DNA of 61,615 nt, from assembly GCA_028278125.1 (NCBI GenBank), contig JANQEY010000228.1:1-61615 (forward strand), in the 5' to 3' direction. The position numbers and the translations under genes were made by a program. The stretch is from a bacterium. Its GTDB lineage: Bacteria; Electryoneota; Electryoneia; Electryoneales; Electryoneaceae. Below the pieces are notes generated by a model. It ran no database searches and had not been told where the DNA came from. It saw only the letters and a program-made list of their open reading frames with translations. How positions within the stretch are numbered: position 1 is the stretch's first letter; each line of letters begins with the position of its first letter. Positions 16,019 through 46,627 of this stretch are shown here, piece after piece.

Positions 16019-19000
16019 ATGTCGAAGTTTATCAAATGTATAACCTTGATTTTACTCTGTGCTGGTGTTGTCTCTGCCGGTGTATTCGAAAGAGAATACC
16101 TGTTTCAACCTGTGCAAGTTGAGAATGACGGCACCTACGACATCTTGTCTATCGAAAATTTGAGAAGTTATGGAAAACCCGGTGCCCCATTACTTCCCTA
16201 CAAAGCAGTCACAATTCTCTTACCTGCAGGTGAAGAGATTGTAAATGTGCAAGTAATAGACACCCAATGGGAAGTTTTAGGAGTCAAAACTTTCCCTCGA
16301 CCGGGTAGTCCTGTTGCTCCGTTAAGCAGCCGTGAACAGGCAGAACTGACGGCTAATCCTGAATATTATAATTCAGAATCATTCTATCCTTCTGATATTA
16401 TCAGCAGTATTCAGAACGGTTTTCTCAGGGGATATGGGCTGGGTAACTTCCTTCTCCATCCCGTTCGCTGGAACCCACAGACCGGTGATACAGAACAACT
16501 ATCATCCATCAAGCTTGAGATTACCACAGAATCAACATACCGGGCAGTCGAGGCGCTGGATAATTTGAAGACAAACTACAGCACTGTAAAAAGTATAAAC
16601 TCGATAACTGATGATGTTGAGAACCTGCGAACATATTCAAATGCCCTCGATGAACTGGATGAAATACCTGGCGGATTCCTGATTATCTGCGACGAAGCTC
16701 AGTCTGATGTCTGGGCTGAATACGTTCAGTTTAAAAATTCACGGGGAATGGTCACTACTCTTCTCACTACCCAGGATATTTATGCTGAATACGCCGGTGT
16801 CGATAATGCAGAAAAAGTACGTAACGCGATTATCGACTATTACCAGAACCATGATGTAGAAGCTGTTCTTCTTGCTGGTGATGTATCCGATGTTCCTTAC
16901 CGTGGATTCTACATCTATGATAACGGGTATACCGACTACAACATGCCATCAGACCTTTACTTTGCCGGACTCGATGGTACATGGAACGATGATGGTGACG
17001 ATCGTTGGGGTGAAGTTGGAGAAGATGACCTGTATCAGGAGATCATCATCGGTCGCGCTCCAACAACCAACGATGCAATGGTTGAGACCTGGATCAGCAA
17101 GCAGATCATGTTCCAGACGGAACCGGTTGTGGATGAAATCACCCAGGCTATAATGGTAGGAGAAGACCTCGGTTGGGTAGCATGGGGTGGTGAGTATAAA
17201 GATGAAGTTCGGCTAGGATCAACTAATCACGGCTATACTACTGAAGGATTTTCTGATGATTGGACAGTTGGAACACTTTATGATATGGACGCTATCTGGA
17301 CTGTTCCCCAACTGTTCGCAGATTTGAACGCGGGTGTTACTTATGTTAATCACCTTGGGCATGCAAACGTTACCTACGCCCTGAAGGCAACAAATCCAGA
17401 TATCAATGAAACTGACCTGACCAATGACGGTATCAACCACAATTTCTACCTCGGATACAGCCAGGGATGTTACTGCGGAGCGTTTGAACAGAACAGTATT
17501 TGTGAACTTTGGACAACCATTGAAACAGGTGCCTTCGCATTTATCGCCAACAGCCGCTATGGTTGGGGCAACCTCTATGATACCGATGGGCCGTCACAGC
17601 ATTACGACCGGGAGTTTTTCGACGCCATTTTCGGCGAAGAAATATATATGACCGGCGACGCCAATCGTGATTCAAAACATGATAATATTCCGATCATCAA
17701 TGAAGCCTGTATGCGCTGGTGTTTTTACGAAATCACCCTTTTCGGTGATCCCACAATTGATCTGTATTCAGGTCCTGTAGAAACAATGACAGTTAACGCC
17801 CCACCGGCGTTTGTCATTGGCGAAGCAGATCTGAACATAACGGTTCAGGGTCTCGAAGGCGCGATCGTGGCAGTCAGCCAGGATAACGTGCTGTTGTCAG
17901 TTGCGGAAACTGACGCGAACGGTTTGGCATCTGTTCCGATGGAAATTCCTGAGCTCGGCTCCCTTCAAATCGTAATTACAGCCCATAACTACCTGCCGTT
18001 CGAGAGTGAAATCCTGGTTATCAATCCTGATGGCATGTACCCGATTGTTAACAGCTGGATGGTTGATGATGCTGCCGGAAACGGTGATGGAATTGCTGAT
18101 TACGGCGAAGATTTTGGCCTGCAGCTCGTTATCGAAAATGTAGGAACTGAAGTGGTTGACGTTCTCGATGTAACAGCAACATCAGCTTCTGAATGGTTAA
18201 ATATCGATGCTGACCCGGTAACAGTGGAAAACATACTTCCGGGTGAAACGGCGACAATTTCTATCCCGTCAGATGTAAGTGTTATGGTTCCTGACGGTAA
18301 CAGTGCCGCAATTTCGGTGACTATGACAGGACTCGAGGATACCTGGCAGCAGGACTTCGGATTGACACTTCACGCTCCTGATCCCGGCATTGATTTCCTG
18401 ACTGTAAATGATGAGGTCGGTGGAAACGGAAACCACCGTTTTGATTCAGGAGAAACCGGGACAATCAGTATTCGTCTGAATAATGACGGATCATCCGCCA
18501 TGGACGGAGCAACATTTAACGTCCATATCGATGATCCTAACCTGCAGAGTGTTACCAGTGCTTTGGGACTTGTCAACCTCGCCGCGAATGATATGAATGA
18601 CTATGCTGACGCGATTGAACTCGAAGTTTCAGGTCTTGCACCCGGAATGGAACGTGCCTGGATACTTTGCGAACTGACACTGCCAAATGGTTATTCATGG
18701 TCAGCCTATGTTTATGTAGATATCGGTGGCGTTTATGACGATCTCGAAGGCATTGACCAGGGATGGTCACATTACGCCAATCCAGACTGGGACGAACAAT
18801 GGCATGTCAGTACTGATCGCAACTGGACACCTGGCGGAACACAAGCGTGGAAGATGGGTGACGATGCCGGTGGCCTGTACATCAACTTCCTCGACGCCTG
18901 CCTTGAGCTGCCGGTTATCGATCGAGATGGTTCTGTCAAGTTAAGCTTCTGGCACTGGATGGATGCTGAGACTTCCAACTACTGGCAGGGTGAATGTTAC

Positions 19001-20227
19001 GACGGTGGTATTGTTGAAAAATCCACCGACGGTGTTACCTGGGAAGTAATAACCATGCCCGGGTATAACTATCTCACCCGTGGTGATACAGGGCCGTTAC
19101 CCCTGGGCATCATGGTTTACAGCGGCCAGATCGACTGGACACAGGAAGAGGTAATAATTGAAGGAACCGGTGATCTATATCTCCGTTTCCGTTTCGGAAC
19201 TGACCAGGGAATTGTCAACGAAGGTTGGTACCTGGATAATATTTCAGTTTCACTGCCAAGTGACCTGACACCACCGTCAGGACTTGAAGCAGAACTGGTC
19301 GGGGACGTAGCCAGCCTCAATTGGAACACCCCGGGTGGACAGGCTATGGATCTCGAACTTCTCGGATTTACTGTCCTTCGAGATGGTAACCCGTTGACCG
19401 GCGTTATCCAGCAAACAAGCTTCGAAGATGACCTTTCAGGTCTTCCGCAGGGAACATACATGTACTCGGTAATTGCAGTTTACAGCGGCGGTGAATCGGA
19501 TGCAGCGGGGCCTGTCCTGGTTAATTATGGTGAATCGACAATCTCCCTTATGGCCATTCCTGTTATATCCCCGATAGAAATCGGCGCCGGTGGTGGAAAC
19601 TTTATGTGGTCGGCTTCAATGACCGAACTATCCGGATCACCTCAAATTGTTGACTGCTGGACGGAACTGGTACTTCCAAACGGTACTCCATATGGACCTT
19701 TGCTTTTAATTGAAAACGTCAACCTTGCGGCTTCCCAGACAATTATCTCCGGTGCTTTGACTCAATATGTCCCCGGATTCGCACCAGCAGGGCTTTATTC
19801 TTACGTAGCTAACGTTGGTGATTATCCCGGCACAATTATCGCCCAGGATGATTTTGATTTCACCAAACTCGCAGGTGCAGGACCTTTGGCGCATAATAAT
19901 GGATGGGCGGTCGTCGGCTGGGATGCCGGTGAAACAACCGGTAAACTTGCAATGTTGCCGACCGAGTATTCCGTGGAACATGCTTATCCAAATCCATTCA
20001 ACCCGCAAACGACCGTTTCCGTTGCGTTGCCGGATGTCTCTGAGCTGCGTATAAGTGTATTCAACCTCCTTGGACAGGAAGTGGTTGTGCTTGGAAATGG
20101 ACTTTTTGAAGCTGGTTACCATTCATTCACGTTCGACGGCCAGGGAATGGCCAGCGGGATATATTTCATCCAGGCAGATATTCCCGGCAAGCTGCATCAA
20201 GTTCAGAAAGTGATGCTGATGAAATAA
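16019..20227 (+). CDS. Gingipain-like C25 cysteine protease with T9SS sorting domain
   Basis: 1402 residues. Signal peptide at 1-20. A propeptide-like region (to about 215) contains GAPLLPYKAVTILLPAGEE, typical of C25 propeptides. The caspase-like catalytic domain spans about 220-590; His448 (NHLGHAN) and Cys484 (SQGCYCGAF) are in the positions of the gingipain dyad. Beta-sandwich domains follow, then a MAM/jelly-roll-like region (about 900-1080, LDNISVS), a fibronectin-III-like domain (about 1085-1175), the shared Ig-like module (about 1180-1300) and a type A T9SS sorting domain (YPNPFNPQTTV to KVMLMK). It would be exported through the T9SS and anchored to or released from the surface. The start has GGGAGGAGG upstream. 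Confidence 0.93.
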   Translation: MSKFIKCITLILLCAGVVSAGVFEREYLFQPVQVENDGTYDILSIENLRSYGKPGAPLLPYKAVTILLPAGEEIVNVQVIDTQWEVLGVKTFPRPGSPVAPLSSREQAELTANPEYYNSESFYPSDIISSIQNGFLRGYGLGNFLLHPVRWNPQTGDTEQLSSIKLEITTESTYRAVEALDNLKTNYSTVKSINSITDDVENLRTYSNALDELDEIPGGFLIICDEAQSDVWAEYVQFKNSRGMVTTLLTTQDIYAEYAGVDNAEKVRNAIIDYYQNHDVEAVLLAGDVSDVPYRGFYIYDNGYTDYNMPSDLYFAGLDGTWNDDGDDRWGEVGEDDLYQEIIIGRAPTTNDAMVETWISKQIMFQTEPVVDEITQAIMVGEDLGWVAWGGEYKDEVRLGSTNHGYTTEGFSDDWTVGTLYDMDAIWTVPQLFADLNAGVTYVNHLGHANVTYALKATNPDINETDLTNDGINHNFYLGYSQGCYCGAFEQNSICELWTTIETGAFAFIANSRYGWGNLYDTDGPSQHYDREFFDAIFGEEIYMTGDANRDSKHDNIPIINEACMRWCFYEITLFGDPTIDLYSGPVETMTVNAPPAFVIGEADLNITVQGLEGAIVAVSQDNVLLSVAETDANGLASVPMEIPELGSLQIVITAHNYLPFESEILVINPDGMYPIVNSWMVDDAAGNGDGIADYGEDFGLQLVIENVGTEVVDVLDVTATSASEWLNIDADPVTVENILPGETATISIPSDVSVMVPDGNSAAISVTMTGLEDTWQQDFGLTLHAPDPGIDFLTVNDEVGGNGNHRFDSGETGTISIRLNNDGSSAMDGATFNVHIDDPNLQSVTSALGLVNLAANDMNDYADAIELEVSGLAPGMERAWILCELTLPNGYSWSAYVYVDIGGVYDDLEGIDQGWSHYANPDWDEQWHVSTDRNWTPGGTQAWKMGDDAGGLYINFLDACLELPVIDRDGSVKLSFWHWMDAETSNYWQGECYDGGIVEKSTDGVTWEVITMPGYNYLTRGDTGPLPLGIMVYSGQIDWTQEEVIIEGTGDLYLRFRFGTDQGIVNEGWYLDNISVSLPSDLTPPSGLEAELVGDVASLNWNTPGGQAMDLELLGFTVLRDGNPLTGVIQQTSFEDDLSGLPQGTYMYSVIAVYSGGESDAAGPVLVNYGESTISLMAIPVISPIEIGAGGGNFMWSASMTELSGSPQIVDCWTELVLPNGTPYGPLLLIENVNLAASQTIISGALTQYVPGFAPAGLYSYVANVGDYPGTIIAQDDFDFTKLAGAGPLAHNNGWAVVGWDAGETTGKLAMLPTEYSVEHAYPNPFNPQTTVSVALPDVSELRISVFNLLGQEVVVLGNGLFEAGYHSFTFDGQGMASGIYFIQADIPGKLHQVQKVMLMK

Positions 20228-20257
20228 ACTCCAGTTTACTGGATACAAATAATCGGT

Positions 20258-20290
20258 TACCCCGGTGGTTTTTCATCGGGGTAAATTTAT
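20258..20290 (+). terminator. Terminator after the C25 gene
   Basis: Arms TACCCCGGTG (20258-20267) and CATCGGGGTA (20274-20283) with a 6-nt loop, followed by AATTTATATATTTT. The arms are identical to the hairpin at 24093-24118 after the FG-GAP gene. Confidence 0.7.
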
Positions 20291-20384
20291 ATATTTTCCA
20301 AATTATTGAGATTCAAGCTTAGCCTGGGGAAATGATCGTAGAGACAATTTATATTTAACATTAGCAAAGATTGGGGAGATTACA

Positions 20385-20975
20385 ATGATTTATAATCGTA
20401 TACGATTTTCATTTATAGGTGTATTGGTTATTTGCTGCCTGATGATGTACACAATAGCTTTAGCCCAGGAACATGCCGAGCGGGTTGATACAACTGTAAC
20501 TATTGAATCGATCACGCCTGTCATACAACCAAATCCTGATGCCAGTCTCTCCAGGGGTATCTTCAATCGCATACTGGGTAAATCAGCAACAAAACTTCCT
20601 GCCGATGAAGGTTGCTGGGAATTTATCAAGGACGAGATAGTTGTTGATTTGTCACGTGCCACTGAACTTTCAGAAATCGGTGGAGCGATCAGGATTGAGG
20701 GAGAGGATTTACCAAAACGAGTGCTTCTCTTCCGGGGTGACGACAACCTGTTACATGCAATGTGCAACAAGTGCGCTCATGCCGGCCGTCGTCTTGATCC
20801 TGTACCCGGCGCCGGGACTGTCCAATGCTGCAGCATGGGAAAAGCGACATATGATTATGACGGTAAAGTTGTAGCGGGGAGTGTAAAAGAGGGTGTCCAT
20901 TCTTTCCCTGTCCGCGAAGAAGGTGACAAAGTCTATATAACTTTAACAGAGGATGAGAAATCAGAAACTCACTAG
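20385..20975 (+). CDS. Exported Rieske-like protein with an altered second ligand pair
   Basis: 196 residues with an N-terminal signal/anchor helix (about 8-27). Residues about 85-190 have the Rieske ferredoxin layout: C130-A-H132 (within CNKCAHAG), then a second site 15 residues on reading C148-C-S-M151-G where the canonical motif is C-x-x-H-G. Flanking elements (LLFRGDDNLLHAM before, ATYDYDGKVVAG and VHSFPVREEGDKVYI after) fit the fold. The last His ligand is thus Met, unless C149 or another residue takes over. It may hold a 2Fe-2S cluster with unusual ligands, or be a degenerate redox domain. It lies between two T9SS genes, but has no sorting domain. Confidence 0.75.
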   Translation: MIYNRIRFSFIGVLVICCLMMYTIALAQEHAERVDTTVTIESITPVIQPNPDASLSRGIFNRILGKSATKLPADEGCWEFIKDEIVVDLSRATELSEIGGAIRIEGEDLPKRVLLFRGDDNLLHAMCNKCAHAGRRLDPVPGAGTVQCCSMGKATYDYDGKVVAGSVKEGVHSFPVREEGDKVYITLTEDEKSETH

Positions 20976-21095
20976 TAATCTACTAGTATAGCCATATATC
21001 GTATCTACAGAATATAACATGACTTATAAAATTGTTAGCGACAATATTTAATATTATCAATCTATTACCATCAACATTTTACTTGACCTACTGGC

Positions 21096-21121
21096 AAATC
21101 CCTTGAGAGATCAAGGGATTT
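21096..21121 (+). terminator. Hairpin before the FG-GAP gene (terminator or leader structure)
   Basis: 11-bp arms AAATCCCTTGA and TCAAGGGATTT with a GAGA loop, followed by ATTGTATATTTT. It lies 34 nt before the FG-GAP gene start. A closely similar element sits at about 24212-24236 before the acylase gene. It may end the Rieske transcript or be a leader element. Confidence 0.55.
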
Positions 21122-21154
21122 ATTGTATATTTTAAGCTCGAAGGGAGGAGTATA

Positions 21155-24064
21155 ATGAAAAAGAATATTAATATTTTTATTAGCACTGTATTATTTGGAC
21201 TTTTTAGCTTCTCAACGTTCGCTCGTGATGGATCCTTCAGCGAACAGATCCCCATAACCGGTCAGACTCAGTATCCTGTCTGTGTAATCAGCATCGATCT
21301 TGATGGCGACGGTGACAACGACATTTTGTCAGCATCGCAGCATGACCACAAGATTTCCTGGTTTGAAAATACAGATGGGCTGGGCAGTTTTGGTTTACAA
21401 CAGACCATCTCAACTGAAATGTTTTGGGCAATGTCGGTCTATGGTGATGATCTTGATGGTGACGGTGATAATGATGTCCTCTCGGCTTCCTATGGTGACA
21501 ACAAAATCGCCTGGTATGAGAATCTCGACGGAGAGGGTAATTTTGGTGCTCAACAGATCATAAGTTCAGAAGCATATGGAGCACGTTCGGTCTTTAGCGC
21601 TGATTTGGATGGGGATGGTGATAAAGATGTTCTATCAGCAGCCTGGGAAATAAATGAAATCGCCTGGTATGAAAATATTGACGGCGCAGGTAATTTTGGT
21701 TTACCACAGATAATTAATACAGATGTCGGGGGCGCCTGGAGTGTGTATTCCACTGACATTGATGGTGACGGCGATTATGATGTGTTATCATCATCGCAGT
21801 TTGATCGTGACATATCCTGGTATGAGAACCTGGATGGACTGGGAAACTTTGGACCACGTCATATAATTGTCGAAGAACTGAACTGGGTACATTCTCTTCA
21901 CACTGACGATATCGATGATGACGGCGATCAGGACGTGCTGGCAGCAGTCTGGAACGACGATATAATCGTCTGGTTTGCCAATACTGATGGTGATGGTACT
22001 TTTGGTGAACAGCAGTTAATCACGATGGAGGCTAATCGACCAACCTGTGTGTACAGTGCCGATTTAGACGGTGATAACGATAAAGATGTTCTTTCTGCTT
22101 CAGTGGTAGACAACAAGATTGCCTGGTACGAGAACGTTGACGGTTTGGGGAGTTTTGGTCCGCAGGAAATTATAACCCTGGACGCCGGTAGCGCAGAATC
22201 TGTTTTCAGCGCTGACATGGATGGTGATGGTGATTATGATGTACTCTCATCCTCCACTATGGATGATAAAATTGCCTGGTATGAAAATACTGACGGTGCA
22301 GGGACCTTCGGTTTCCAGCAACCGGTTTCAACGGGGATAAATGGCGCGTTATCTGTTTTTTGCGCTGATCTTGACGGCGATGGCGATAACGACATTGTCA
22401 CAGCGGCACGTTCAGACAATGAAGTAGTGTGGCAGGAAAACCTGGATGGCCTCGGCAATTTTGGATTTCCACAGGTTATCACTTCCGACGCTGAATACGC
22501 CTACTCTGTCTTCTGCATCGACCTTGATGGTGATGATGATATTGACGTCCTTTCTGCTTCCAGGCATGATGATAAGATTGCCTGGTACGAAAACCTGGAC
22601 GGATTCGGTGAATTTGGTCCACAACAGATAATTACTACAGAAGCTTTTAATGCTGAGTCAGTATTCAGCGCTGATCTTGATGGTGATGGGGACAATGATG
22701 TCCTTTCAGCCTCAAACTTTGATGACAAGATCGCCTGGTATGAAAATCTTGATGGATTGGGTGATTTTGGACCTCAACTGGTTATCACCGAAGATGCCAA
22801 CGCGGCAAGATCGGTATTCAGTGTCGACCTTGATGGTGATGGTGATAACGATGTGATCGCTGCTTATCAAAAATATGTCTCCTGGTTTGAAAACCTTGAT
22901 GGTCTAGGCGATTTCGGTCTACCACAGTTGCTGACTGACATGGCGAATGGTGCAAATTCTGTATTTTGTAAAGACCTGGACGGTGATTGGGATTATGATG
23001 TCCTGGTAGCATCCTATCTTGACAATAAAGTTTCCTGGTTCGAAAACATCAACGGGCTTGGAGATTTTGGCCCCAGGCAGGTGATCACAAATGTTGCAAT
23101 GGACGCACATTCCGTTTTCAGCACTGACCTGGATAATGATGGTGACAATGACGTCGTAGCAGCATCATGGGGATTTGAAGTAGCATGGCATGAAAATCTT
23201 GATGGCCTGGGAACCTTCGGACCACCTCGAATTATGTACGATGATTATGGCTTAGGATATGGAGTTTTTTGCGCTGATCTCGATGGTGATGGCAAAAGTG
23301 ATGTTCTCACGGCTACCCCCTCAACCAGTTCAACAGCCTGGTACCGTAACCTGTTAGAAGAATCCCACCTGGATCTTACGATTACTCCCCAGGATGATCC
23401 TGCAATAATACCATATATGGGTTTGTTGCACTTTACTGCCGAACTGGTGAATGAATCGAATGAGAACGCTGTTTATGATGCATGGATCAATATCCATTTC
23501 CCCGTTGACTACATCAGCGAAGATTCATCTCTGGTTCGAACAGGATTGGAAATAGCTGCCGGTGAAACACTGGAATGGGATCTCTATCTTTGCGCGCCTC
23601 AGTGTGCGCTTCAAGGTGAATATTATTTCGTCGGTTGCATAGGTGAATGGCCGGACAACGTCTACGATTCAGAGACGTTTTTATTCGAAATTCTCCCTCC
23701 GCAGGGAAATACTACCATGGGACGTAGTTCAGCCTGGAGATTATACGGCTGGGATGAAAATAATCCCGCTGATAAAGACTATTTCGCCTTTGCACCCAAT
23801 GATTATAATATCGATAAGGTCTATCCGAATCCATTCAATCCACAGACGACTGTGACTGTATCACTTCCTGAAATCTCAGATCTTCGAATCAGTGTTTTTA
23901 ATCTTCTTGGACAGGAAGTTAAGGTACTCGGCCAGGGTCGTTTTGAAGCGGGTTATCATTCATTCACCTTTGACGGCCTAGGAATGGCCAGCGGGATTTA
24001 CTTCATCCAGGCTGATATTCCCGGAAAGATGCATCAGGTTCATAAAGTAGTGCTGATGAAATAA
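21155..24064 (+). CDS. FG-GAP/VCBS repeat protein with T9SS sorting domain
   Basis: 969 residues. Signal peptide at 1-23. Residues about 40-735 hold 14 repeats of about 52 residues, with consensus DLDGDGDNDVLSAS...IAWYENLDGLGxFG. The DxDGDGxxD loops are calcium-binding as in integrin FG-GAP/VCBS units, and the array should form one or two beta-propellers. An Ig-like module (about 738-850) and a T9SS sorting domain (YPNPFNPQTTVTVSL to KVVLMK) follow. It is likely a secreted or surface adhesin or lectin-like protein; no catalytic domain is visible. GGGAGGAG lies upstream of the ATG. Confidence 0.93.
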   Translation: MKKNINIFISTVLFGLFSFSTFARDGSFSEQIPITGQTQYPVCVISIDLDGDGDNDILSASQHDHKISWFENTDGLGSFGLQQTISTEMFWAMSVYGDDLDGDGDNDVLSASYGDNKIAWYENLDGEGNFGAQQIISSEAYGARSVFSADLDGDGDKDVLSAAWEINEIAWYENIDGAGNFGLPQIINTDVGGAWSVYSTDIDGDGDYDVLSSSQFDRDISWYENLDGLGNFGPRHIIVEELNWVHSLHTDDIDDDGDQDVLAAVWNDDIIVWFANTDGDGTFGEQQLITMEANRPTCVYSADLDGDNDKDVLSASVVDNKIAWYENVDGLGSFGPQEIITLDAGSAESVFSADMDGDGDYDVLSSSTMDDKIAWYENTDGAGTFGFQQPVSTGINGALSVFCADLDGDGDNDIVTAARSDNEVVWQENLDGLGNFGFPQVITSDAEYAYSVFCIDLDGDDDIDVLSASRHDDKIAWYENLDGFGEFGPQQIITTEAFNAESVFSADLDGDGDNDVLSASNFDDKIAWYENLDGLGDFGPQLVITEDANAARSVFSVDLDGDGDNDVIAAYQKYVSWFENLDGLGDFGLPQLLTDMANGANSVFCKDLDGDWDYDVLVASYLDNKVSWFENINGLGDFGPRQVITNVAMDAHSVFSTDLDNDGDNDVVAASWGFEVAWHENLDGLGTFGPPRIMYDDYGLGYGVFCADLDGDGKSDVLTATPSTSSTAWYRNLLEESHLDLTITPQDDPAIIPYMGLLHFTAELVNESNENAVYDAWINIHFPVDYISEDSSLVRTGLEIAAGETLEWDLYLCAPQCALQGEYYFVGCIGEWPDNVYDSETFLFEILPPQGNTTMGRSSAWRLYGWDENNPADKDYFAFAPNDYNIDKVYPNPFNPQTTVTVSLPEISDLRISVFNLLGQEVKVLGQGRFEAGYHSFTFDGLGMASGIYFIQADIPGKMHQVHKVVLMK
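21280..23350 (+). repeat. In-gene tandem FG-GAP repeat array (14 units)
   Basis: About 156-bp coding repeat, 14 units, recognised from recurrent DLDGDGDxDV and W-Y/F-E-N-x-D-G motifs. The last unit is shortened (AWYRNLLEES). Units vary in sequence, so it is an old array. Confidence 0.88.
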
Positions 24065-24092
24065 TAGCTTTAATGGTTGAAAAGAAAGCATT

Positions 24093-24124
24093 TACCCCGG
24101 TGTTATTACATCGGGGTATTTTTA
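24093..24124 (+). terminator. Terminator after the FG-GAP gene
   Basis: Arms TACCCCGGTG (24093-24102) and CATCGGGGTA (24109-24118), loop TTATTA, followed by TTTTTATTA. The arms are the same as in the terminator after the C25 gene. Confidence 0.82.
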
Positions 24125-24211
24125 TTACAATAGTTTAATTAAAGCATATCCATATTCTAACATTCAGTAAACTAACGATTTATACTTGGGAATTTTATGA
24201 TATATTTAACA

Positions 24212-24245
24212 ATTCCCTTGAGAAATTGAGGGATTTTTTGTATAT
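24212..24245 (+). terminator. Hairpin with T-run upstream of the acylase gene
   Basis: TCCCTTGA pairs with TTGAGGGA around a GAAA loop (some G-T pairs), followed by TTTTTTGTATATTT. It closely resembles the element at 21096-21121. It may be a terminator or an attenuator in the leader of the acylase gene. Confidence 0.6.
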
Positions 24246-24352
24246 TTCGGAATTCTATGGGTATTCTTCTCGAATCAATAAGAAAGAACTAATTAAAAAT
24301 CTCTCAATTTTGAAATTGCAATCTGCCGGACCTTTACTTGAATGGTGAAAAT

Positions 24353-26887
24353 ATGAAGAAGCTATTCTATTCAGTTTTGCTTGTATCACTTGTAACTTTG
24401 TCCGCTACAGGAATATTATATGCCACATTCCTACCCTCTCCTGATGGAACAGTTGTCTACATAGATCGTGACGAATATGGTGTTCCCCATGTCCATGCCG
24501 AAACCGAATTCGGGATGTTTTTCGGCCAGGGATTTGCCACGGCCCGGGACCGGTTGATGCAGATGAACAGCCATCGCCTGGCAGCCCAGGGTCGGTTGGC
24601 TGAATGGATGGGCCCCGATAAACTGGAAAGTGATCAGCACGCCAAATTGTTTGGATATACCCACGAAGAACGTCTTGCCCGTTATGCCGCAATGGACCAG
24701 GAAAGCCGTGATATGCTGATCGCCTACTCCGCCGGGGTAAATGCTTACATGGATTCTATGGAGGTAAATCCACTTCTATACTCACCAGCTGGGACAATAC
24801 TGTATGATATTGATCGCTGGACTCCGCTGTCCAGCATGATCATCGGCGAATACAACGGGATTTTCGCGGGTTCGCAAGGGGGCTGGGAGTTAACACGTCT
24901 TGAGGAACTCGAATTGATGGGTGAGGATTGGTTCGAGGAAAACCGTCCTATTAATGATCCGACAGCCCCAACCACCATCCATGATGGTGCTCAGGCCACT
25001 GAACGTGAATGGAGTTACAGCGGAATCGAGGTAAATCCGGAAATTGCACGTGAATGGGAGGATCGCCATCAAAGGGTGATTGAAACACGTGAAGAGTTAA
25101 ACCTCCTGACATCTTACGGGAGTTTCGCCGCCCTGATCTGCGAAGAGAAATCGGAATCGGGAGCAGCAATGCTTCTTGGATGCCCACAAGTGGGTGAACC
25201 TACATATGACAGTCCCGCCCAGGTGATGGAAATTGAACTATCCTGTCCCACAATGCATATCGCAGGGGTAACATCATCCGGATCTCCCGGGATATTTATC
25301 GGGCGTAATGATTATTTCGCCTGGAGTATTACGTCAGGTCATACCGACAACTCGGATATTTTCATAGAAACAATGATGGACGAAACACCGTCTTATTACC
25401 GGTATAATGACGAATGGCTGGAATTCGAGGTGTATACTGACACTATCTATGTGTATGATTTCCCTACCATTTACACTCACTATCGCACAATCCATGGTCC
25501 GGTGGTGAGTTTTGATTACGAAAATCACCAGGCGTTTTCCCTGAAAACGACCGTCTGGGATCCGGAATATGTCGACTATGGCTGGAGCCGTGATGTCTGG
25601 ACAGCAACTTCAGTAGAGGAGGTCGAAGAACATCTCTGGAGAGTCCCCTCGAGTATAAACCTGTTTTACGCTGATTATGAGGGTAATGTCCGTTACTGGC
25701 ACTTGGGATGGTACAACGACCGAACCGACGGTATTGATCCCCGTCTCCCCCACAATGGTGACGGAAGTGAAGAATGGGGCGGTATCATACCTTTTGAAGA
25801 TCTTCCAATGGCCGGTGACATGGACCAGGACTACTTCGTCAACTGGAATAATAAACCAGCATCCTGGTGGAATAATGGCGATAATATACCCTGGGTTGGC
25901 GATAATCATGTCACATTGATGGATAATTACGTTGCGCCGATTACTCCTTTTAACTTTGAAAACCTCAAACGGATTCCCCAGGAGATTTTGGATCATGGAA
26001 CATACCAGCAGGCGATTGAATGGACTGAGGAAGTAAACCAAGAAAATATTCTTCCACCTGGCCAGAGTGATTTTATCTCCCTGCTGGGAATACCAGATCC
26101 TCATAGAAACGATCAATGGGACCTTCACCTGGACTGGGATTATAAACTGTTCCGGTTTGGTGAAGAGTTCACCTTCCCTGTTTCCATTGACGTTGATCCC
26201 TGGATCGAACCGGTCGTTATTCCGGGAGACGGTGGCAATATCGTTTTTGATATAACCCTGTCAAATAATACAGGACAGACACTGAATTTTGGTGAGGTCT
26301 GGACTGAAGTAATATTATCAAGTGGCGATGTGCTTGGTCCGTTCAACCGAACTCCAGTCGGTTTAGCTCCGGGCGAAATCATCGAATTAACCGCTATTCA
26401 AAGAGTACATGCTGTTATTCCAGGTGGTGTTTATACATATGCAGTTCGTGCCGGAATTGATGGTTCAATTATCATGGCATCTGATCAGTTCGAAGTAATC
26501 AAACTGCCGGATGCTATGGCTGTTTCCGGTCAGAATTCCTCCGAATTGTGGAACGACCTGGATTGGAATTATGGTTACCTGGATGAACTGACTGCAGATG
26601 CTGACCAGACGGAAATGCCTTTTTCATTTGAATTAATGAGTATTTACCCTAATCCGTTTAATCCTTCAACTCGAATTGTATTTGCACTGACACAACCAGC
26701 TAAACTGAAAATGACCGTTTATAATATTAATGGACAGGAAGTCGCATTACTCGCCGATAACATATTTACATCAGGACAGCATGAGTTAATATTTGACGCG
26801 ACCAATCTTGCAAGTGGAATCTATTTTATTCATGCGGAAACTCAGAACGGTAAAAAGACGGTTCGCAAAATTGTTATGACACACTAA
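24353..26887 (+). CDS. Penicillin-acylase-family (Ntn) hydrolase with T9SS sorting domain
   Basis: 844 residues from the ATG at 24353; a TTG at 24338 is possible, but MKKLFYSVLLVSLVTLSATG is a clean signal peptide. The N-terminal alpha-like part shows VYIDRDEYGVPHVHAETEFG and GFATARDRLMQMN, typical of the family. The candidate nucleophile is the Ser of SYGSFAALI, which would become the N-terminus of the beta chain after self-cleavage. Later family marks are GSPGIFIGRNDYFAWSITSG, FYADYEGNVRYWHLG and NWNNKPA (oxyanion Asn). Usual conserved residues after the nucleophile (SNxW, NDPH) are changed. An Ig-like module and a T9SS sorting domain (YPNPFNPSTRI to KIVMTH) follow. It probably cleaves acyl amides outside the cell; substrate unknown. 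Confidence 0.88.
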   Translation: MKKLFYSVLLVSLVTLSATGILYATFLPSPDGTVVYIDRDEYGVPHVHAETEFGMFFGQGFATARDRLMQMNSHRLAAQGRLAEWMGPDKLESDQHAKLFGYTHEERLARYAAMDQESRDMLIAYSAGVNAYMDSMEVNPLLYSPAGTILYDIDRWTPLSSMIIGEYNGIFAGSQGGWELTRLEELELMGEDWFEENRPINDPTAPTTIHDGAQATEREWSYSGIEVNPEIAREWEDRHQRVIETREELNLLTSYGSFAALICEEKSESGAAMLLGCPQVGEPTYDSPAQVMEIELSCPTMHIAGVTSSGSPGIFIGRNDYFAWSITSGHTDNSDIFIETMMDETPSYYRYNDEWLEFEVYTDTIYVYDFPTIYTHYRTIHGPVVSFDYENHQAFSLKTTVWDPEYVDYGWSRDVWTATSVEEVEEHLWRVPSSINLFYADYEGNVRYWHLGWYNDRTDGIDPRLPHNGDGSEEWGGIIPFEDLPMAGDMDQDYFVNWNNKPASWWNNGDNIPWVGDNHVTLMDNYVAPITPFNFENLKRIPQEILDHGTYQQAIEWTEEVNQENILPPGQSDFISLLGIPDPHRNDQWDLHLDWDYKLFRFGEEFTFPVSIDVDPWIEPVVIPGDGGNIVFDITLSNNTGQTLNFGEVWTEVILSSGDVLGPFNRTPVGLAPGEIIELTAIQRVHAVIPGGVYTYAVRAGIDGSIIMASDQFEVIKLPDAMAVSGQNSSELWNDLDWNYGYLDELTADADQTEMPFSFELMSIYPNPFNPSTRIVFALTQPAKLKMTVYNINGQEVALLADNIFTSGQHELIFDATNLASGIYFIHAETQNGKKTVRKIVMTH

Positions 26888-27208
26888 CATTTAAAAAAGT
26901 TAGCTGACACTAACTCTGAAATGTAACAGAAGTTGAATTTTTAGCAAAAAACTGAAAATCGCAAAGAATTTAGCTGTTTATGTAAATTTCGTTCAAAAAT
27001 TGAGGTTTTATTTCTATTTCATGCTGCTTTTTTGACTAACAAATAACTCTCCTTTTTTTGGCTTTTTTCTATTTTAATATCGCTCAGCTTTCTTTAATTG
27101 TGGACAAGGGAGTATATTATTATAACAATCCTACCGATTGGTCGTGGTTTAATTCTGCACAGCAAGCAGCGTTACCCGTAGAACAGATAAATTGATTTTG
27201 GAGGCAAT
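26888..27208. other. Intergenic region, no gene seen
   Basis: AT-rich 321 bases between the acylase and the 368-residue gene. No terminator or hairpin is obvious. It ends with TTGGAGGC, the ribosome site of the next gene. Confidence 0.4.
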
Positions 27209-28315
27209 ATGAAAACTCGTAACATTTTAATAAATACAATATTAATATTGCTTTTTGTTCCATCGATGATTTTCGCCCAGGCTGGATTCGACATATTGGG
27301 TGGTGGAACGGAAGCATTTGTAGATCCCGGTGACATTTACTCCTTTGAAATGACACTGATAAATACAGGTCCGGAGACAGATGATTTTCTCCTGAGCCTC
27401 ACAAATGAAGACGTTCCCGAAGATTGGACGACTTCCTTCTGTATTGGTGGTCTCTGTTATACACCTGCTATCCGTGAAGTAACAGAAACCATCGCTCCGT
27501 TAGCTGCACAAAGTGTTTGGGTAGATTTCCATACTTTAGCTGAAGGTGTAGGTTATGTGAGTCTTACGATCCAGAGCGGCAATGATCCGGAACTGGAAAC
27601 AACGCTTGATTTTACTTTATATGCCGGAGATCCTCCCGCTGTAGAAGTGTTTATCACACCCGTCGAGGAGCCTGTCCAGGTAGAGGCCGGTGGTTCGATT
27701 CTGTTTGATGCTGAAATCAGGAACAATACTGAGGAGGTACTCCAGGGGAATGCCTGGACAGAAGTTGTGCTGTCAAATGAAACAACATTCGGTCCAATTG
27801 TAAACGCGAATGTAACCTTGCAGCCAGGCCAGGAGTTGACTTTTACCAATCTTGAACTGGATGTCCCCGTTTTTGCACCCCCAGGCGACTACACGTATGT
27901 GGCGAAGTTGGGGATTTTCCCCGGTTTTGTTCAAGCTGAGGATATGTTCGATTTTGAGGTAATTGTCAATGAAGGTGCTGCTGATAATAATGAGTGGCAA
28001 GTTTATGGCTGGGACGATGGTCCTGAATTCACTTCTGACAAAATCCCCACGGAATTTAAAATTTATGAACTTTACCCGAATCCCTTTAACTCGAGCCTGA
28101 ATATATCACTATCACTGCCGGTTGCTTCCCAGGTTGAAATCGGGATATACAATTCACTTGGACAACTCGTATCTAATGTTAAAAACGGGTATTTCTCTGG
28201 TGGATCTCATAATCTGACCTGGAATGCGGAAAAAATCAGCAGTGGAACCTATTACCTGAAGGTTTATTCACCTTCATTCGGATCACTAACAAGGAATATA
28301 GTTTACCTGAAGTAA
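27209..28315 (+). CDS. T9SS-sorted secreted protein, unrecognised (368 aa)
   Basis: Signal peptide at 1-23 (ending MIFAQA). The first domain, about 25-145, is a beta-sandwich of the kind seen in CARDB-like extracellular proteins and contains the pair FCIGGLCYTP. The second is the Ig-like module shared by neighbours (about 146-255). The third is a T9SS sorting domain (YPNPFNSSLNISLSL to NIVYLK). It lies 71 bp upstream of the selenoprotein candidate with no terminator between, so the two are likely cotranscribed and possibly act together. I cannot name a function. Confidence 0.82.
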   Translation: MKTRNILINTILILLFVPSMIFAQAGFDILGGGTEAFVDPGDIYSFEMTLINTGPETDDFLLSLTNEDVPEDWTTSFCIGGLCYTPAIREVTETIAPLAAQSVWVDFHTLAEGVGYVSLTIQSGNDPELETTLDFTLYAGDPPAVEVFITPVEEPVQVEAGGSILFDAEIRNNTEEVLQGNAWTEVVLSNETTFGPIVNANVTLQPGQELTFTNLELDVPVFAPPGDYTYVAKLGIFPGFVQAEDMFDFEVIVNEGAADNNEWQVYGWDDGPEFTSDKIPTEFKIYELYPNPFNSSLNISLSLPVASQVEIGIYNSLGQLVSNVKNGYFSGGSHNLTWNAEKISSGTYYLKVYSPSFGSLTRNIVYLK

Positions 28316-28386
28316 ATTTCTTGTTTTAGATAATCAAAGAATTTATTTGTTGATTTTACATTTATACAGTTCTGGAGGAAATCTTA

Positions 28387-29865
28387 ATGCTGAAGAAAGT
28401 TTATGTTATTTCGTTTGCACTGCTCCTGCTTGCGGGGAGTTTATTTGCATTTGAACGAAAAGTAATGTTTGAAGATTGCTGGGCATACTGGTGAGGATCG
28501 TGTGGTTTGGCGTCGCCAACCTTCCATAATTTTATGACTACTGAACCTTATGCCAGCAACACGGTTTGTTTTACCACTCATGATAATTTTGATCCATGGT
28601 CTTCTTACTCACCGACTGATCATGACGGTAGAATTTCATATTACCCTGTACCTTACTGGCCCAGCTGTTTTGTCGATGGTCTTGTGAATCAGCACCCGGG
28701 TATTTTTAACGGTTTAGTAAATCGATATGAGGCCCGGATTGATATAGAAAGCCCTATAGAAATTGTGATTGATGCTTATGAGGGTGAGGGTGAAATTGTT
28801 GTTATGCTAACAATAAATAGTGCTGATGAAGCGGTGGACGGAGATAATTACAACCTTCGTTGCGCAATAGTATCGAACGAAGTAACAGGTTTTTATACTG
28901 CCCCAAACGGACAATCAGAATTTCATAATGACCTTTTGACTTATTCACCAGACCATGAAGGGGTTGCTTTCACAATCGACGCGAATTCCACTAACGAATA
29001 CGAATTTTATTTCGATTACCCGATTACCCTGTCACATGGCCAAAACGATTTTGAAGTTATGGCAGACAACATTTCTGCGATCGCTTTTGTACAGAATGAT
29101 GACACCGAGGAGGTTATCCAGGCTGAAATAAATGCGGTAATTCCGGACAACCAACTGGATTTATCAGCCGAGCCCCTGGCACCCCCTATCGTAATTGGAC
29201 CTCAAGGGGGGACGTTCCACTGGATGCCAACAGTTGTAAATGATACAGGTGAAGACCAGACATTTGATGCATGGACGGAACTAACACTTCCGAATGGGAA
29301 CAATTATGGTCCTCTAATGATTGTTGAGGATGTACCAATTCAGGATGGAATTACACTCAGCCCAATGTTAACCCAGTTTGTACCAGGGTATGCGTTTACC
29401 GGAGAATACACATTCACGGCAAAAATAGGTGACTATGGAGTTGAAACCATAGATGAAGCTTCATTTACATTTGAAAAACTGGCAGCAGAGGGTCCCCTGG
29501 TGCATCAGAATTTTAATCTCGATGATTGGGCTTCTTCCGGATGGGACGAGGGAGAATACAACCTTCTTGGCACACCTGAACCAGATGCAGCCAGCCCTGC
29601 CGGTTTCATACTTTCGGAAGCATTTCCGAATCCGTTTAATCCAACAACATCAGTATCAGTAGATCTGCCTGAGAGTGAACTGCTGAAAATTTCAGTCTTC
29701 AACACGAACGGTCAGGAAGTTGCTGAATTATCCAATGGGTATCTGAATCCGGGCATTCATAGTTTCACCTTTAATGCTTCCGATCTTGCCAGCGGTATAT
29801 ATTTTATTCATGCCAATGTACCGGGCAGGATGAACGAAATCAGGAAAGTTGTTCTGATGAAATAA
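28387..29865 (+). CDS. Candidate selenoprotein: Omp28-like thioredoxin-fold protein with T9SS sorting domain (UGA at codon 36)
   Basis: The ATG at 28387 has GGAGG 8 nt upstream and starts a clean signal peptide (MLKKVYVISFALLLLAGSLFA). The frame is open to 29865 except for one TGA at 28492-28494. Read as selenocysteine it gives W-U36-G-S-C39, the position of CxxC in Omp28-like thioredoxin-fold proteins, where homologues have the form E-x-x-T-x-x-W-C-x-x-C. Later family marks are ISYYPVPYW with a likely cis-Pro at 92 and CFVDG, then LRCAIVSNEV and AIAFVQNDDTEEVIQAE. The shared Ig-like module and a T9SS sorting domain (FPNPFNPTTSV to KVVLMK) end the protein at 492 residues. Without readthrough only a 35-residue peptide would form, and the part from TTG 28507 would lack a signal. 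Alternatives are a nonsense mutation or a sequence error. Confidence 0.75.
28495..28525 (+). promoter_or_regulatory. Candidate bacterial SECIS element
   Basis: Immediately after the in-frame UGA. Upper stem: GGTT (28504-28507) with AACC (28518-28521), a bulged T at 28508, then GGC (28509-28511) with GCC (28515-28517), loop GTC. A lower helix GGA (28495-28497) with TCC (28523-28525) is also possible. The stem begins 9 nt and the apical loop 17 nt after the UGA; in E. coli fdhF the loop is also about 17 nt away, with a bulged U on the 5' side. The first loop base is G, as bacterial SECIS models require. Pairing was done by eye. Confidence 0.62.
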
Positions 29866-29920
29866 ATAAGCTGTTAACTGCTTAATATTTAAAATGGATT
29901 TTGATTTTTGAAAAACAAAG

Positions 29921-29944
29921 AGCCCGGCAGATGCCGGGCTTTTG
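29921..29944. terminator. Bidirectional terminator between convergent genes
   Basis: Arms AGCCCGGCA (29921-29929) and TGCCGGGCT (29932-29940), with A-rich sequence on one side and TTTTGTTT on the other. It serves the selenoprotein candidate (plus) and the VIT/vWA gene (minus). Confidence 0.88.
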
Positions 29945-29963
29945 TTTGCGTCCCCCCTCAAAA

Positions 29964-32309
29964 TCATTTAGCTACAATGATTCTTTGAACTGAGTTTATT
30001 ACACCCGAGCCGTTTACTGCTTTACCTTCAAGGTGGATAAAATATGTACCGCTGGAAAGATTGTTTGCGTCCAGTCTTAGAAAATGTTGTCCCGGTTCGG
30101 TGTTCCCATGCCAGAGTGTTTCAACTTTTCTTCCCAGGATGTTATAAATTGAAATATCAACGTTCATTTTCTGCTGGATTAGAAAATTAATACGCGCCTC
30201 GTTATTGAATGGGTTAGGATAAACATCAAATCCTGATGTGTACTGATCGATCCGTATCTCAACCGTTACCTCTCCATCCATCGTCGTCCCATCAGGAGTG
30301 CGCATGGCAACGCGGTAGGTATAACGTCCTGAATTGACAATGGTATTATCCCAGAAAGAGGTTTGGTGGATTGGTTCAGGTGTCAGTAACAAAAATGCTC
30401 TTCCATTTGCATTACTACGGTAAACGCTAAAAACACTTCCATCGGGGATTAATGGTTCGTTCCAATCCAATTCGATTCCACGTTTTGTCACCTTTGCATT
30501 TACCGTTAGGAATCCTTCTTCAATTGCGTTATTGTCATCACCACCTTCATCATCATCGTCATCATCACCTGTCCCAAAGTTTGTGTAAGGTGTGAGGATA
30601 CCGTACCTGAGTGACAAGTCAATAATCATATCAATAGTTTCCTGGTCCTCACCATGCACAGCCATATGCGCCAACCAGTAATCAATCTTACTCATCGCCC
30701 ACATACGGGGTACAAATGGATAATTCTGAGCTTCCATAGTAAACTCAAACGGCCCATAGACATACTCTACAATATCGTTCACAACTCTGCCAGTTACAGT
30801 AATGTCTGAATTAGCTGCAGAATTATATCGTCCGGCAAAAATGGTTTGTGTACCGCTAAAAATCGAATAAGGTTCTGGAGGGTATATATCGTCTGTATCA
30901 ATCAAGCCATAATCAATATTAATATCAAGCATTGCCGGCGAAGAAAACCTGTCGAAGAACACTTCTATTTGTTCAGCAACATATTCTTCACCAGGTGGGA
31001 TAGCGATTGAAAGTCCATGGTTTTCATAGGCTATCATCTTGAGGAAATCGAGGTTGCTGGCGCAATCTCCTCCTGGATCACCAACTCCGACAGTAAAAAT
31101 TGAAGCGTCGTGTATATTACCCTCACTGATATTGTTAAGGATTGTAGGAAGATGCAGTTCTCCAGGTACAGCCTCCGGTCTTCCATCCGAGACAAGCAGA
31201 ATCTGGTTTGCTGTGCTATCGCTCATCTCCTGCTGGACAGCCGTTACCATAGCCGCATTCAGATCGGTACCATTTCGCAGCGTCCGCGATTCTATAAACG
31301 ATATTGCATCTTCTATATTATCCAGTGAAGCGGGAACCGGATCTTCTTCCCAGAGCACAATTAAATCATTAAATGCGATGATATTAAAATAATCCTCGGG
31401 ATTTAAATGTTCTATGCAGTAAATAGCCGCTTCTTTAGCTTCATCAATTCTATTCTCAGCCAACATGCTGCGCGAAACATCGAGTACGAATATGAAATAT
31501 TTTGTAAAATTTTCTTCCGGTTCTACTTCACCCGGTTCTAGAACAGCAAGGAAATGACCTGATGAATCAGGATCTTCACAATGTGGCATTACCCACATTC
31601 CGCTGTCATCGGGATCAACCTGTATAGAAAGAGAGAGTGGAAGATCGGGTTCCATTTCGAAATCAATAAACCTTACAGATATGCTGTCTTCGGACTGGTA
31701 AAGAATCTCTACGTCATAATTCTCAAGCCAGAGAGTATTCAACAGTCGTTGTGATGAGATGTTCAGGTTGATTTCCACCGTATCCACAGGCTCGGCAAGG
31801 AATCCTCCCATCTGCAAAGGATAATCCAGGTAATATGATCCAAATGAATATTCCATCAACTCTGCATATTCAAGTCGCATGGTAACATCACCATTGGGGA
31901 AATCTGGAAGTGGAGCATAAAAAGGATTTTCGCCCAGGAACGTCATCAACTCTTCATTATCCGCTCCTCCTCCTCCCGGTTCTGGCTGTTCACCAACCTC
32001 CAGCTCATAGTAGACCAACTCCTCTCCTTCCCAGCGACCGAAACCAACGATACTGGCCATTTCCGGGACAGGGTAATAATAGTTGGCATCAATCAACGAA
32101 TCTCCATCCCAGGAATTATAGAATTGTTGATCGATGGTAAATGATGCTACCTGGTCTCTTATATCAATGTTAGCAGTAATTTTTTTTAAAGGGATATAAT
32201 CGGTTGGATAGTTATCGGTAAATGGAAACAGGATTGCTTCAGCAATAACCAATTGTGAAAAGATGAGTAAAACGGAACAACAAACCACAAGACGGGTTAT
32301 AGTTTTCAT
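29964..32309 (-). CDS. VIT and von Willebrand factor A domain protein with T9SS sorting domain
   Basis: 781 residues. Signal peptide at 1-23. A VIT domain (about 40-175) is followed by a vWA domain (about 270-450) with the MIDAS motif D-V-S-R-S in FIFVLDVSRSM, then NGTDLNAAM and LLVSDGRPE. This is the layout of inter-alpha-trypsin-inhibitor heavy chains and their bacterial relatives. After a helical part there is an acidic linker (six Asp in a row), a fibronectin-III-like domain (about 610-690) and a T9SS sorting domain (YPNPFNNEARINFLI to RIIVAK). It should be surface exposed and metal dependent in binding. GGGGGAAGC precedes the ATG. Confidence 0.92.
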   Translation of the reverse strand: MKTITRLVVCCSVLLIFSQLVIAEAILFPFTDNYPTDYIPLKKITANIDIRDQVASFTIDQQFYNSWDGDSLIDANYYYPVPEMASIVGFGRWEGEELVYYELEVGEQPEPGGGGADNEELMTFLGENPFYAPLPDFPNGDVTMRLEYAELMEYSFGSYYLDYPLQMGGFLAEPVDTVEINLNISSQRLLNTLWLENYDVEILYQSEDSISVRFIDFEMEPDLPLSLSIQVDPDDSGMWVMPHCEDPDSSGHFLAVLEPGEVEPEENFTKYFIFVLDVSRSMLAENRIDEAKEAAIYCIEHLNPEDYFNIIAFNDLIVLWEEDPVPASLDNIEDAISFIESRTLRNGTDLNAAMVTAVQQEMSDSTANQILLVSDGRPEAVPGELHLPTILNNISEGNIHDASIFTVGVGDPGGDCASNLDFLKMIAYENHGLSIAIPPGEEYVAEQIEVFFDRFSSPAMLDINIDYGLIDTDDIYPPEPYSIFSGTQTIFAGRYNSAANSDITVTGRVVNDIVEYVYGPFEFTMEAQNYPFVPRMWAMSKIDYWLAHMAVHGEDQETIDMIIDLSLRYGILTPYTNFGTGDDDDDDEGGDDNNAIEEGFLTVNAKVTKRGIELDWNEPLIPDGSVFSVYRSNANGRAFLLLTPEPIHQTSFWDNTIVNSGRYTYRVAMRTPDGTTMDGEVTVEIRIDQYTSGFDVYPNPFNNEARINFLIQQKMNVDISIYNILGRKVETLWHGNTEPGQHFLRLDANNLSSGTYFIHLEGKAVNGSGVINSVQRIIVAK

Positions 32310-45463: not shown

Positions 45464-46627
45464 TCAGGAAATAAATTCCCTGATACGTCTCAAGCCTTCT
45501 TCGATTGTTTGCTCAGGAGCGGCAAATGTAATACGGATAAAGCCTTCAGAACAATCGCCAAATCCTGCTCCGGGGATAGTTGCTACATGTTTTTCGCTTA
45601 ACAGTTTTTCGCAGAAGTCTGCCGAATCCGGGTTATACTCCGAAATATCCAGCATAAAATAAAACGCACCCTGGGGAATAGAATATCCTATACCGTTCAT
45701 CTCGTTTAATTCAGATAAAATCCATCCACGCCTTTTATTGTAAGCCGAGACCATCTCCAGAACAGACTTCTCACTTCTTTGATTCGTTAACGCTGTTAAG
45801 CCTGCCATTTGGATAAATGGCGCCACATTTGTAATTGAGTACTGGGAAACTTTAAGAATTGCTGATAAAATTTCCGGGGGAGCGGTCACATATCCCAGGC
45901 GCCATCCAGCCATGGCGTAAGTTTTGGAGAAACTGTTAATAGTGATTGTTCTCTCTTTCATACCGGGTAGGGATGCAATGGAAATATGCTTCGCATCATC
46001 AAAGATAAGCCTGCTGTAAACTTCGTCGGAGATAACCAGCAGGTCATTCTTTACCGCCAAGTCAGAAAGCTGCTGTAATTCATCAATAGTATAGACTGTA
46101 CCGGTAGGATTATTTGGACTGTTTATTATCAGTAGCCTTGTTTTATCGTTGATGGATTCTGCTATCAGCTCAATTGGAGGTCGGAAACCGGTTTTTCCGT
46201 CGCTGGGTATACGCCGTGGGATGCCATTGGCAATCCAGGTAGAGGATTCATATGGTGCCCAGCTGGGATCAATGATTATAACCTCTTCACCGGGTGCAAT
46301 CACACTTTGAATCGTGCAGAAAACTGCGTGAACACCACCATGTGTTATCAGTATTTCGCTGTCCGGATCATATTCAAGACCGTACAGATTTTTAATACTA
46401 CCGGATACGGCTTTTCTGAGTTCGATCAATCCTCTTGTAGCGGCATAATGAGTATAACCATCCAGAATTGCCCTGTTGCAGGCTTCCACAATTGGTCCTG
46501 GAGTTGAAAAATCCGAATCACCTGTCTGCAGTTTGATTATCTTGATCCCGGATCTTTCAAGCTCCCTCGCTTTGTCAGCGACACGGAGAGTTATTGATAC
46601 CTGGAGTTTATCAAGAACAGGATTCAT
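45464..46627 (-). CDS. PLP-dependent aminotransferase, class I/II
   Basis: 387 residues, fold type I. Marks: ITHGGVHAVFCTIQSV, NSPNNPTGTVYT, SDEVYSRLIFDD, and SFSKTYAMAGWRLGYV, with the PLP Lys in SKT and a conserved C-terminal Arg in GFIRITFA. It resembles aspartate/alanine-type enzymes. It is in the glycan locus next to an aldolase and ligase, so it may make an amino acid or keto acid used there. The stop overlaps the ligase upstream region by a few bases. Confidence 0.92.
   Translation of the reverse strand: MNPVLDKLQVSITLRVADKARELERSGIKIIKLQTGDSDFSTPGPIVEACNRAILDGYTHYAATRGLIELRKAVSGSIKNLYGLEYDPDSEILITHGGVHAVFCTIQSVIAPGEEVIIIDPSWAPYESSTWIANGIPRRIPSDGKTGFRPPIELIAESINDKTRLLIINSPNNPTGTVYTIDELQQLSDLAVKNDLLVISDEVYSRLIFDDAKHISIASLPGMKERTITINSFSKTYAMAGWRLGYVTAPPEILSAILKVSQYSITNVAPFIQMAGLTALTNQRSEKSVLEMVSAYNKRRGWILSELNEMNGIGYSIPQGAFYFMLDISEYNPDSADFCEKLLSEKHVATIPGAGFGDCSEGFIRITFAAPEQTIEEGLRRIREFIS

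Follow-up and report, generated by a model that had tools for sequence, protein, structure and literature searches.

Strong sequence support for selenocysteine at the UxxC site of a predicted T9SS-sorted, Omp28-like protein

The window, meaning the whole 61,615-nucleotide stretch of DNA analyzed here, contains a gene whose reading frame is crossed by a single in-frame UGA. The frame opens at ATG 28387, closes at TAA 29863-29865, and spans 492 codons, 456 of which remain open 3' of the TGA. Around this codon, the translated protein reads CWAYW-U-GSC-GLASPTF, where U marks the predicted selenocysteine (Sec). The following features define the locus.

28374..28378, + strand: ribosome-binding site GGAGG, 8 nt 5' of the ATG, read from the sequence
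28387..29865, + strand: predicted selenoprotein gene, 492 codons plus TAA with a single in-frame UGA, based on frame and column counts
28387..28449, + strand: putative signal peptide MLKKVYVISFALLLLAGSLFA, assigned by eye
28450..28716 (end approximate), + strand: thioredoxin-like part with U36-x-x-C39, from family-profile matches to 5y1a (HBP35) and 1fo5 (thioredoxin)
28492..28494, + strand: predicted Sec-UGA codon, residue 36, with 29 of 29 family UGAs on the same column
28501..28503, + strand: Cys39 codon, the other half of the UxxC pair, from frame translation and alignment
28504..28522, + strand: predicted bacterial SECIS hairpin, from pairing register, covariation, and motif rarity
28636..29145, + strand: Omp28-like region, below the Pfam cut-off (PF11551, residues 84-253)
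29623..29823, + strand: T9SS type A sorting domain (PF18962, residues 413-479, above cut-off; TIGR04183, also above cut-off)

The initial annotation described a gene split by one TGA at 28492-28494 and equipped with a ribosome site, a signal peptide, and a sorting domain, and each of these elements is recovered here. The N-terminus fits a signal peptide by eye. The C-terminus matches Por_Secre_tail (PF18962) with 34.2 bits against a cut-off of 27, and the T9SS sorting domain TIGR04183 with 33.4 bits against a cut-off of 23. An Omp28 match is also present (E 3e-5); its 24.3 bits lie under the PF11551 gathering cut-off of 34.9. Several neighboring genes also encode T9SS tails, forming a cluster around the selenoprotein gene (window positions 16019-32309). 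These genes encode a C25 (gingipain-type) peptidase, an FG-GAP protein, a penicillin amidase-like protein, a 368-residue protein, and a VWA protein.

Related genomes were reached through the glutamyl-tRNA synthetase encoded in the window, which shares 64-66% identity with its counterparts in three metagenome bins. One of these bins is labelled Calditrichaeota (L002), and its phylum was scanned as a set of 39 genomes. A first contig profile scan with a four-row N-terminal alignment returned no match. With the N-terminal 262 residues of the window protein as query, 77 matches were obtained in 36 of the 39 genomes. Exactly one TGA occurs in 23 of these matches, and none of the 77 contains an internal TAA or TAG. 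The final alignment comprised 80 domains: 75 of the 77 phylum matches, six outgroup rows (four from G006, labelled WOR-3, and two from G004, labelled KSB1), and the window protein, minus two rows dropped for a missing N-terminal part (L167 and L168). The domain count leaves out two short matches of the 77 and a C-terminal-only match from G007.

The distribution of UGA in this alignment is strongly ordered. UGA occurs in 29 of the 80 domains, window included, and in every case it falls on one column, that of the first Cys of the CxxC motif. The 28 other UGA domains come from 15 genomes. At the same column, the 51 rows without UGA carry Cys in 49 cases, Asp in one, and Ser in one, with no Trp. 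Because all 29 UGAs in 80 domains share a single column, their placement on the Cys position can be taken to exceed chance. The initial annotation had placed the TGA at the first Cys of a CxxC motif and proposed a search for Cys at that position in aligned homologs. The alignment bears this out, and two homologs (P0122 and P0006) display CGPC at the site.

Sec and Cys versions are interspersed within the family. A quick tree requires 12 Sec/Cys changes, of which at least six are forced by well supported branches. The row nearest to the window protein by tree path, L093, also carries UGA, with a fork support of 94. Both versions coexist in genome G025, where three of the five Omp28-like copies have UGA and the other two Cys (L094, L095, L096, L098, and L128). 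One UGA copy (L150:1151-2782) reads U-G-P-N-C, with the second Cys displaced one residue further. The domain architecture was scanned in 27 family proteins (26 UGA and one Cys), three of the 29 UGA proteins having been omitted as cut at contig ends (two) or short (one). A PF11551 Omp28 match at E<=0.001 was obtained for 21 of the 27 and a T9SS tail at the same threshold for 26. The T9SS tail is thus the rule within the clade of the window protein.

Immediately downstream of the UGA, the window RNA can form a short hairpin. It begins 9 nt past the UGA, and its arms (28504-28511 and 28515-28522) pair at seven of eight positions around a GUC loop (28512-28514), giving a UGA-to-loop distance of 17 nt. 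The bacterial SECIS model described in PMC13188914 specifies a loop of 3-9 nt with G within loop positions 1-2, a distance of 16-37 nt to the UGA, and a minimum free energy (MFE) of -7.5 kcal/mol or lower. The window hairpin fits this rule, with a 3-nt apical loop starting G-U, the 17-nt spacing, and an MFE of -7.9 kcal/mol, but its stem has one mismatch and its energy lies near the threshold. The -7.9 kcal/mol fold retains only the inner stem pairs of the register and differs in the outer pairs, and the 18-nt core alone reaches -6.0 kcal/mol. Free folding of 40 nt at the window UGA was not better than that of shuffled sequences (z -0.05). The window hairpin is therefore among the weaker ones of the UGA genes.

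Across the family, the best model hairpin averages -13.2 kcal/mol in the UGA genes (n=29) versus -8.1 kcal/mol in the Cys genes (n=49; rank test p=5e-6, with rows that are not independent). The -7.5 kcal/mol rule is passed by 26 of 29 UGA genes, three failing, versus 23 of 49 Cys genes. A scan of 119 registers, carried out without the window, selected the register with the loop at 17 nt, which was then counted over the 29 UGA and 49 Cys genes. At least seven of eight pairs form in the window (seven) and in 7 of the 28 other UGA genes versus none of the 49 Cys genes, so that, with the window counted, this pairing level is reached by only 8 of 29 UGA genes. Among ten UGA genes of the window geometry, again including the window, all eight pairs covary, compared with a shuffled mean of 3.0. 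Selection of these ten rows required a G[GU][CA] loop and at least six of eight pairs, which biases their percentage of paired positions; L120 was excluded, with six pairs and a different loop. When both window strands are counted, only 3 of 2661 TGAs fit the hairpin motif, the selenoprotein UGA among them, and synonymous recoding of the window yields the motif in 0.2% of cases.

A second hairpin geometry was observed in seven UGA Omp28 genes (L119, L120, L134, L142, L145, L146, and L153), all from genomes with doubled Sec genes (G019, G020, G022, and G023). It consists of a 6-nt GAUCCC-like loop located 18 nt past the UGA. Covariation supports it only moderately, and shifting the register by 2 gives a similar score.

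The machinery for Sec insertion is widespread among the relatives. Under strict thresholds, 35 of 43 genomes have tRNA-Sec, 39 have selA (38 over the cut-off), and 37 have selB. Relatives with UGA copies, a set of 15 that does not include the genome of the window itself, possess selA and selB in all cases and tRNA-Sec in 14. The 28 relatives without UGA copies have selA in 24, selB in 22, and tRNA-Sec in 21. Four genomes possess none of the three genes (G010, G017, G027, and G041); three of them carry Cys versions only, and G041 has no match. Because Sec genes are also present in the majority of genomes that lack a UGA copy, this co-occurrence discriminates little and is consistent with the Sec reading rather than decisive.

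Some relatives carry this machinery in duplicate. Genomes G018-G023 (L206-L217 and L224-L234) each contain two selA genes and two tRNA-Sec genes; the anticodon is UCA in every case. Five of them (all except G020) also contain two selB genes, which belong to two lineages separated by a deep, well supported split. Such a cell apparently has two Sec systems side by side, and the SelB proteins of the two lineages may recognize different types of SECIS. G042 and G043 combine two selA and two selB genes with a single tRNA-Sec. Doubled Sec operons have been described in Photobacterium profundum 3TCK (PMC5330540).

Taken from the sequence evidence, the Sec reading of the in-frame UGA is strongly supported because the column statistics, the covarying SECIS-like hairpin, and the Sec genes of the relatives converge on it; the assignment of Sec to a UxxC motif in the initial annotation gains support accordingly. 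With a probability of roughly 0.9, UGA would encode Sec in the first position of a predicted UxxC redox pair, within a thioredoxin-like protein that is likely exported and T9SS-sorted and is a divergent relative of GOS_C/NF045500.

Three other readings were weighed. The gene could be a pseudogene, its TGA being either a sequencing error or a nonsense mutation that recently hit a Cys codon; one base change from TGC or TGT would suffice. This is nonetheless improbable: the same codon recurs on the same column in the 28 other domains from 15 genomes, nine of these domains have covarying hairpins, and the frame stays open over the 456 codons past the TGA. In addition, the start of P0003, which is 67% identical, is predicted just downstream of the UGA site, so that this gene may likewise have a stop there. 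Slightly less probable still is that UGA acts as a true stop and that a shorter protein of 452 codons is made from the downstream TTG 28507, an open reading frame that mechanical gene finding does list (P0002). This product would, however, have neither the signal peptide nor the redox pair, and the ribosome site sits at the upstream ATG instead. Partial termination at the UGA alongside Sec insertion is possible. A genome-wide reading of UGA as Trp or another amino acid, whose sole argument is that the frame would then be open, is excluded; the initial annotation had called UGA as Trp unlikely. No Trp occurs on the column, and UGA is an ordinary stop elsewhere in the window because TGA terminates 11 of the 39 ORFs examined there, including an aminotransferase at 45464 whose profile match reaches residue 386 of 387.

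Selenocysteine in an Omp28-related protein has precedents. NCBIfam lists NF045500 as "Omp28-related selenoprotein", and a 2026 review includes it as hypothetical protein GOS_C with a UxxC motif (PMC13188914). GOS_C itself was found in 2008 by Zhang and Gladyshev, who reported 74 sequences with a Trx-like fold (PMC2398784). The window protein has in common with GOS_C/NF045500 a UxxC motif, with Sec predicted in first position, and an Omp28-like part that comes after a Trx-like one. Because it misses the curated NF045500 cut-off widely (30.7 versus 200 bits), the window protein is best classed, on sequence grounds, as a divergent relative of this family and not a member.

Members over the cut-off were located in 12 of 149 genomes from the phylum of a Neomarinimicrobiota-labelled bin and in none of the eight genomes of a smaller relative set that includes G007. 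They amount to 17 matches, 16 with one TGA and the remaining one without its N-terminal part. Ten of the 17 (from L194-L204) were scanned for domains: the T9SS tail that characterizes the window protein is also present in four, and a Dockerin_1 match occurs in two, one of them under its cut-off. Unlike the window protein, several of L194-L204 end, as judged by eye, in dockerin-like repeats. This pattern suggests two ways of anchoring the same selenoprotein. Weak matches below the cut-off in the same phylum contain TAG or TAA in G080, G136, and G115, and two TGA codons in G122.

The initial annotation knew of no described Omp28 or T9SS-sorted selenoprotein. This claim must be narrowed since Omp28-related selenoproteins are known and four of ten scanned NF045500 members carry a T9SS tail. 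The literature search returned no paper joining selenoproteins to T9SS, the co-occurrences being single mentions of each term. The same search found no paper for Omp28 together with selenoprotein, or for selenoprotein together with Calditrichaeota.

A predicted function can be drawn from structural relatives. When a profile of 27 family proteins was compared with the PDB, the best whole-sequence match was HBP35 of Porphyromonas gingivalis (5y1a, E 4e-9). This match covers the motif and the middle region; its single stretches are weak (19.1, 13.7, and 3.2 bits), and the tail stretch is not significant. Further profile matches are 1fo5, which is a small thioredoxin (E 2e-5), and 8glj, which is a T9SS sorting domain (E 5e-4). 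AlphaFold models of 492 and 262 residues, built on a shallow six-row alignment, had mean pLDDT values of 47 and 52, and in both models the thioredoxin part lay mostly below 50.

The thioredoxin activity of HBP35 requires both cysteines, and one form of the protein is found on the cell surface (PMC2907840). It is secreted by the Por system (PMC3120885). HBP35 and the window protein are alike in a CxxC-type thioredoxin motif combined with secretion by the Por (type IX) system, which is predicted for the window protein. They differ in that HBP35 has Cys where the window protein would have Sec, and hemin binding is a feature of HBP35. By analogy with these relatives, on which the redox function rests, the window protein is likely a surface or secreted Sec-Cys (seleno-thiol) oxidoreductase.

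A route from gene to function can be proposed along these lines. SelB with Sec-tRNA(Sec) would read the hairpin at 28504-28522 and recode the UGA. The protein would then cross the inner membrane via its signal peptide and the outer membrane via T9SS. Once on the cell surface or released from it, the protein may use its Sec-Cys pair as a fast thiol/disulfide or peroxide-reducing center, much like HBP35, which is secreted by T9SS and has thioredoxin activity.

These observations bear on both annotation and evolution. Standard gene finding cuts a gene of this kind at its active site, as exemplified by P0002, the predicted window protein from the downstream ORF, in which both signal peptide and redox residue are missing. 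In uncultured phyla, secreted redox proteins may be misannotated by a cut at UGA. At a broader and more tentative level, an uncultured phylum might place Sec on its cell surface, with multi-copy T9SS-exported thioredoxins that swap Sec and Cys repeatedly, two SECIS geometries serving the same family, and genomes keeping one or two deeply split SelB sets. Because Sec and Cys have been exchanged many times on a single scaffold in this family, the reasons for gain and loss of Sec become directly testable.
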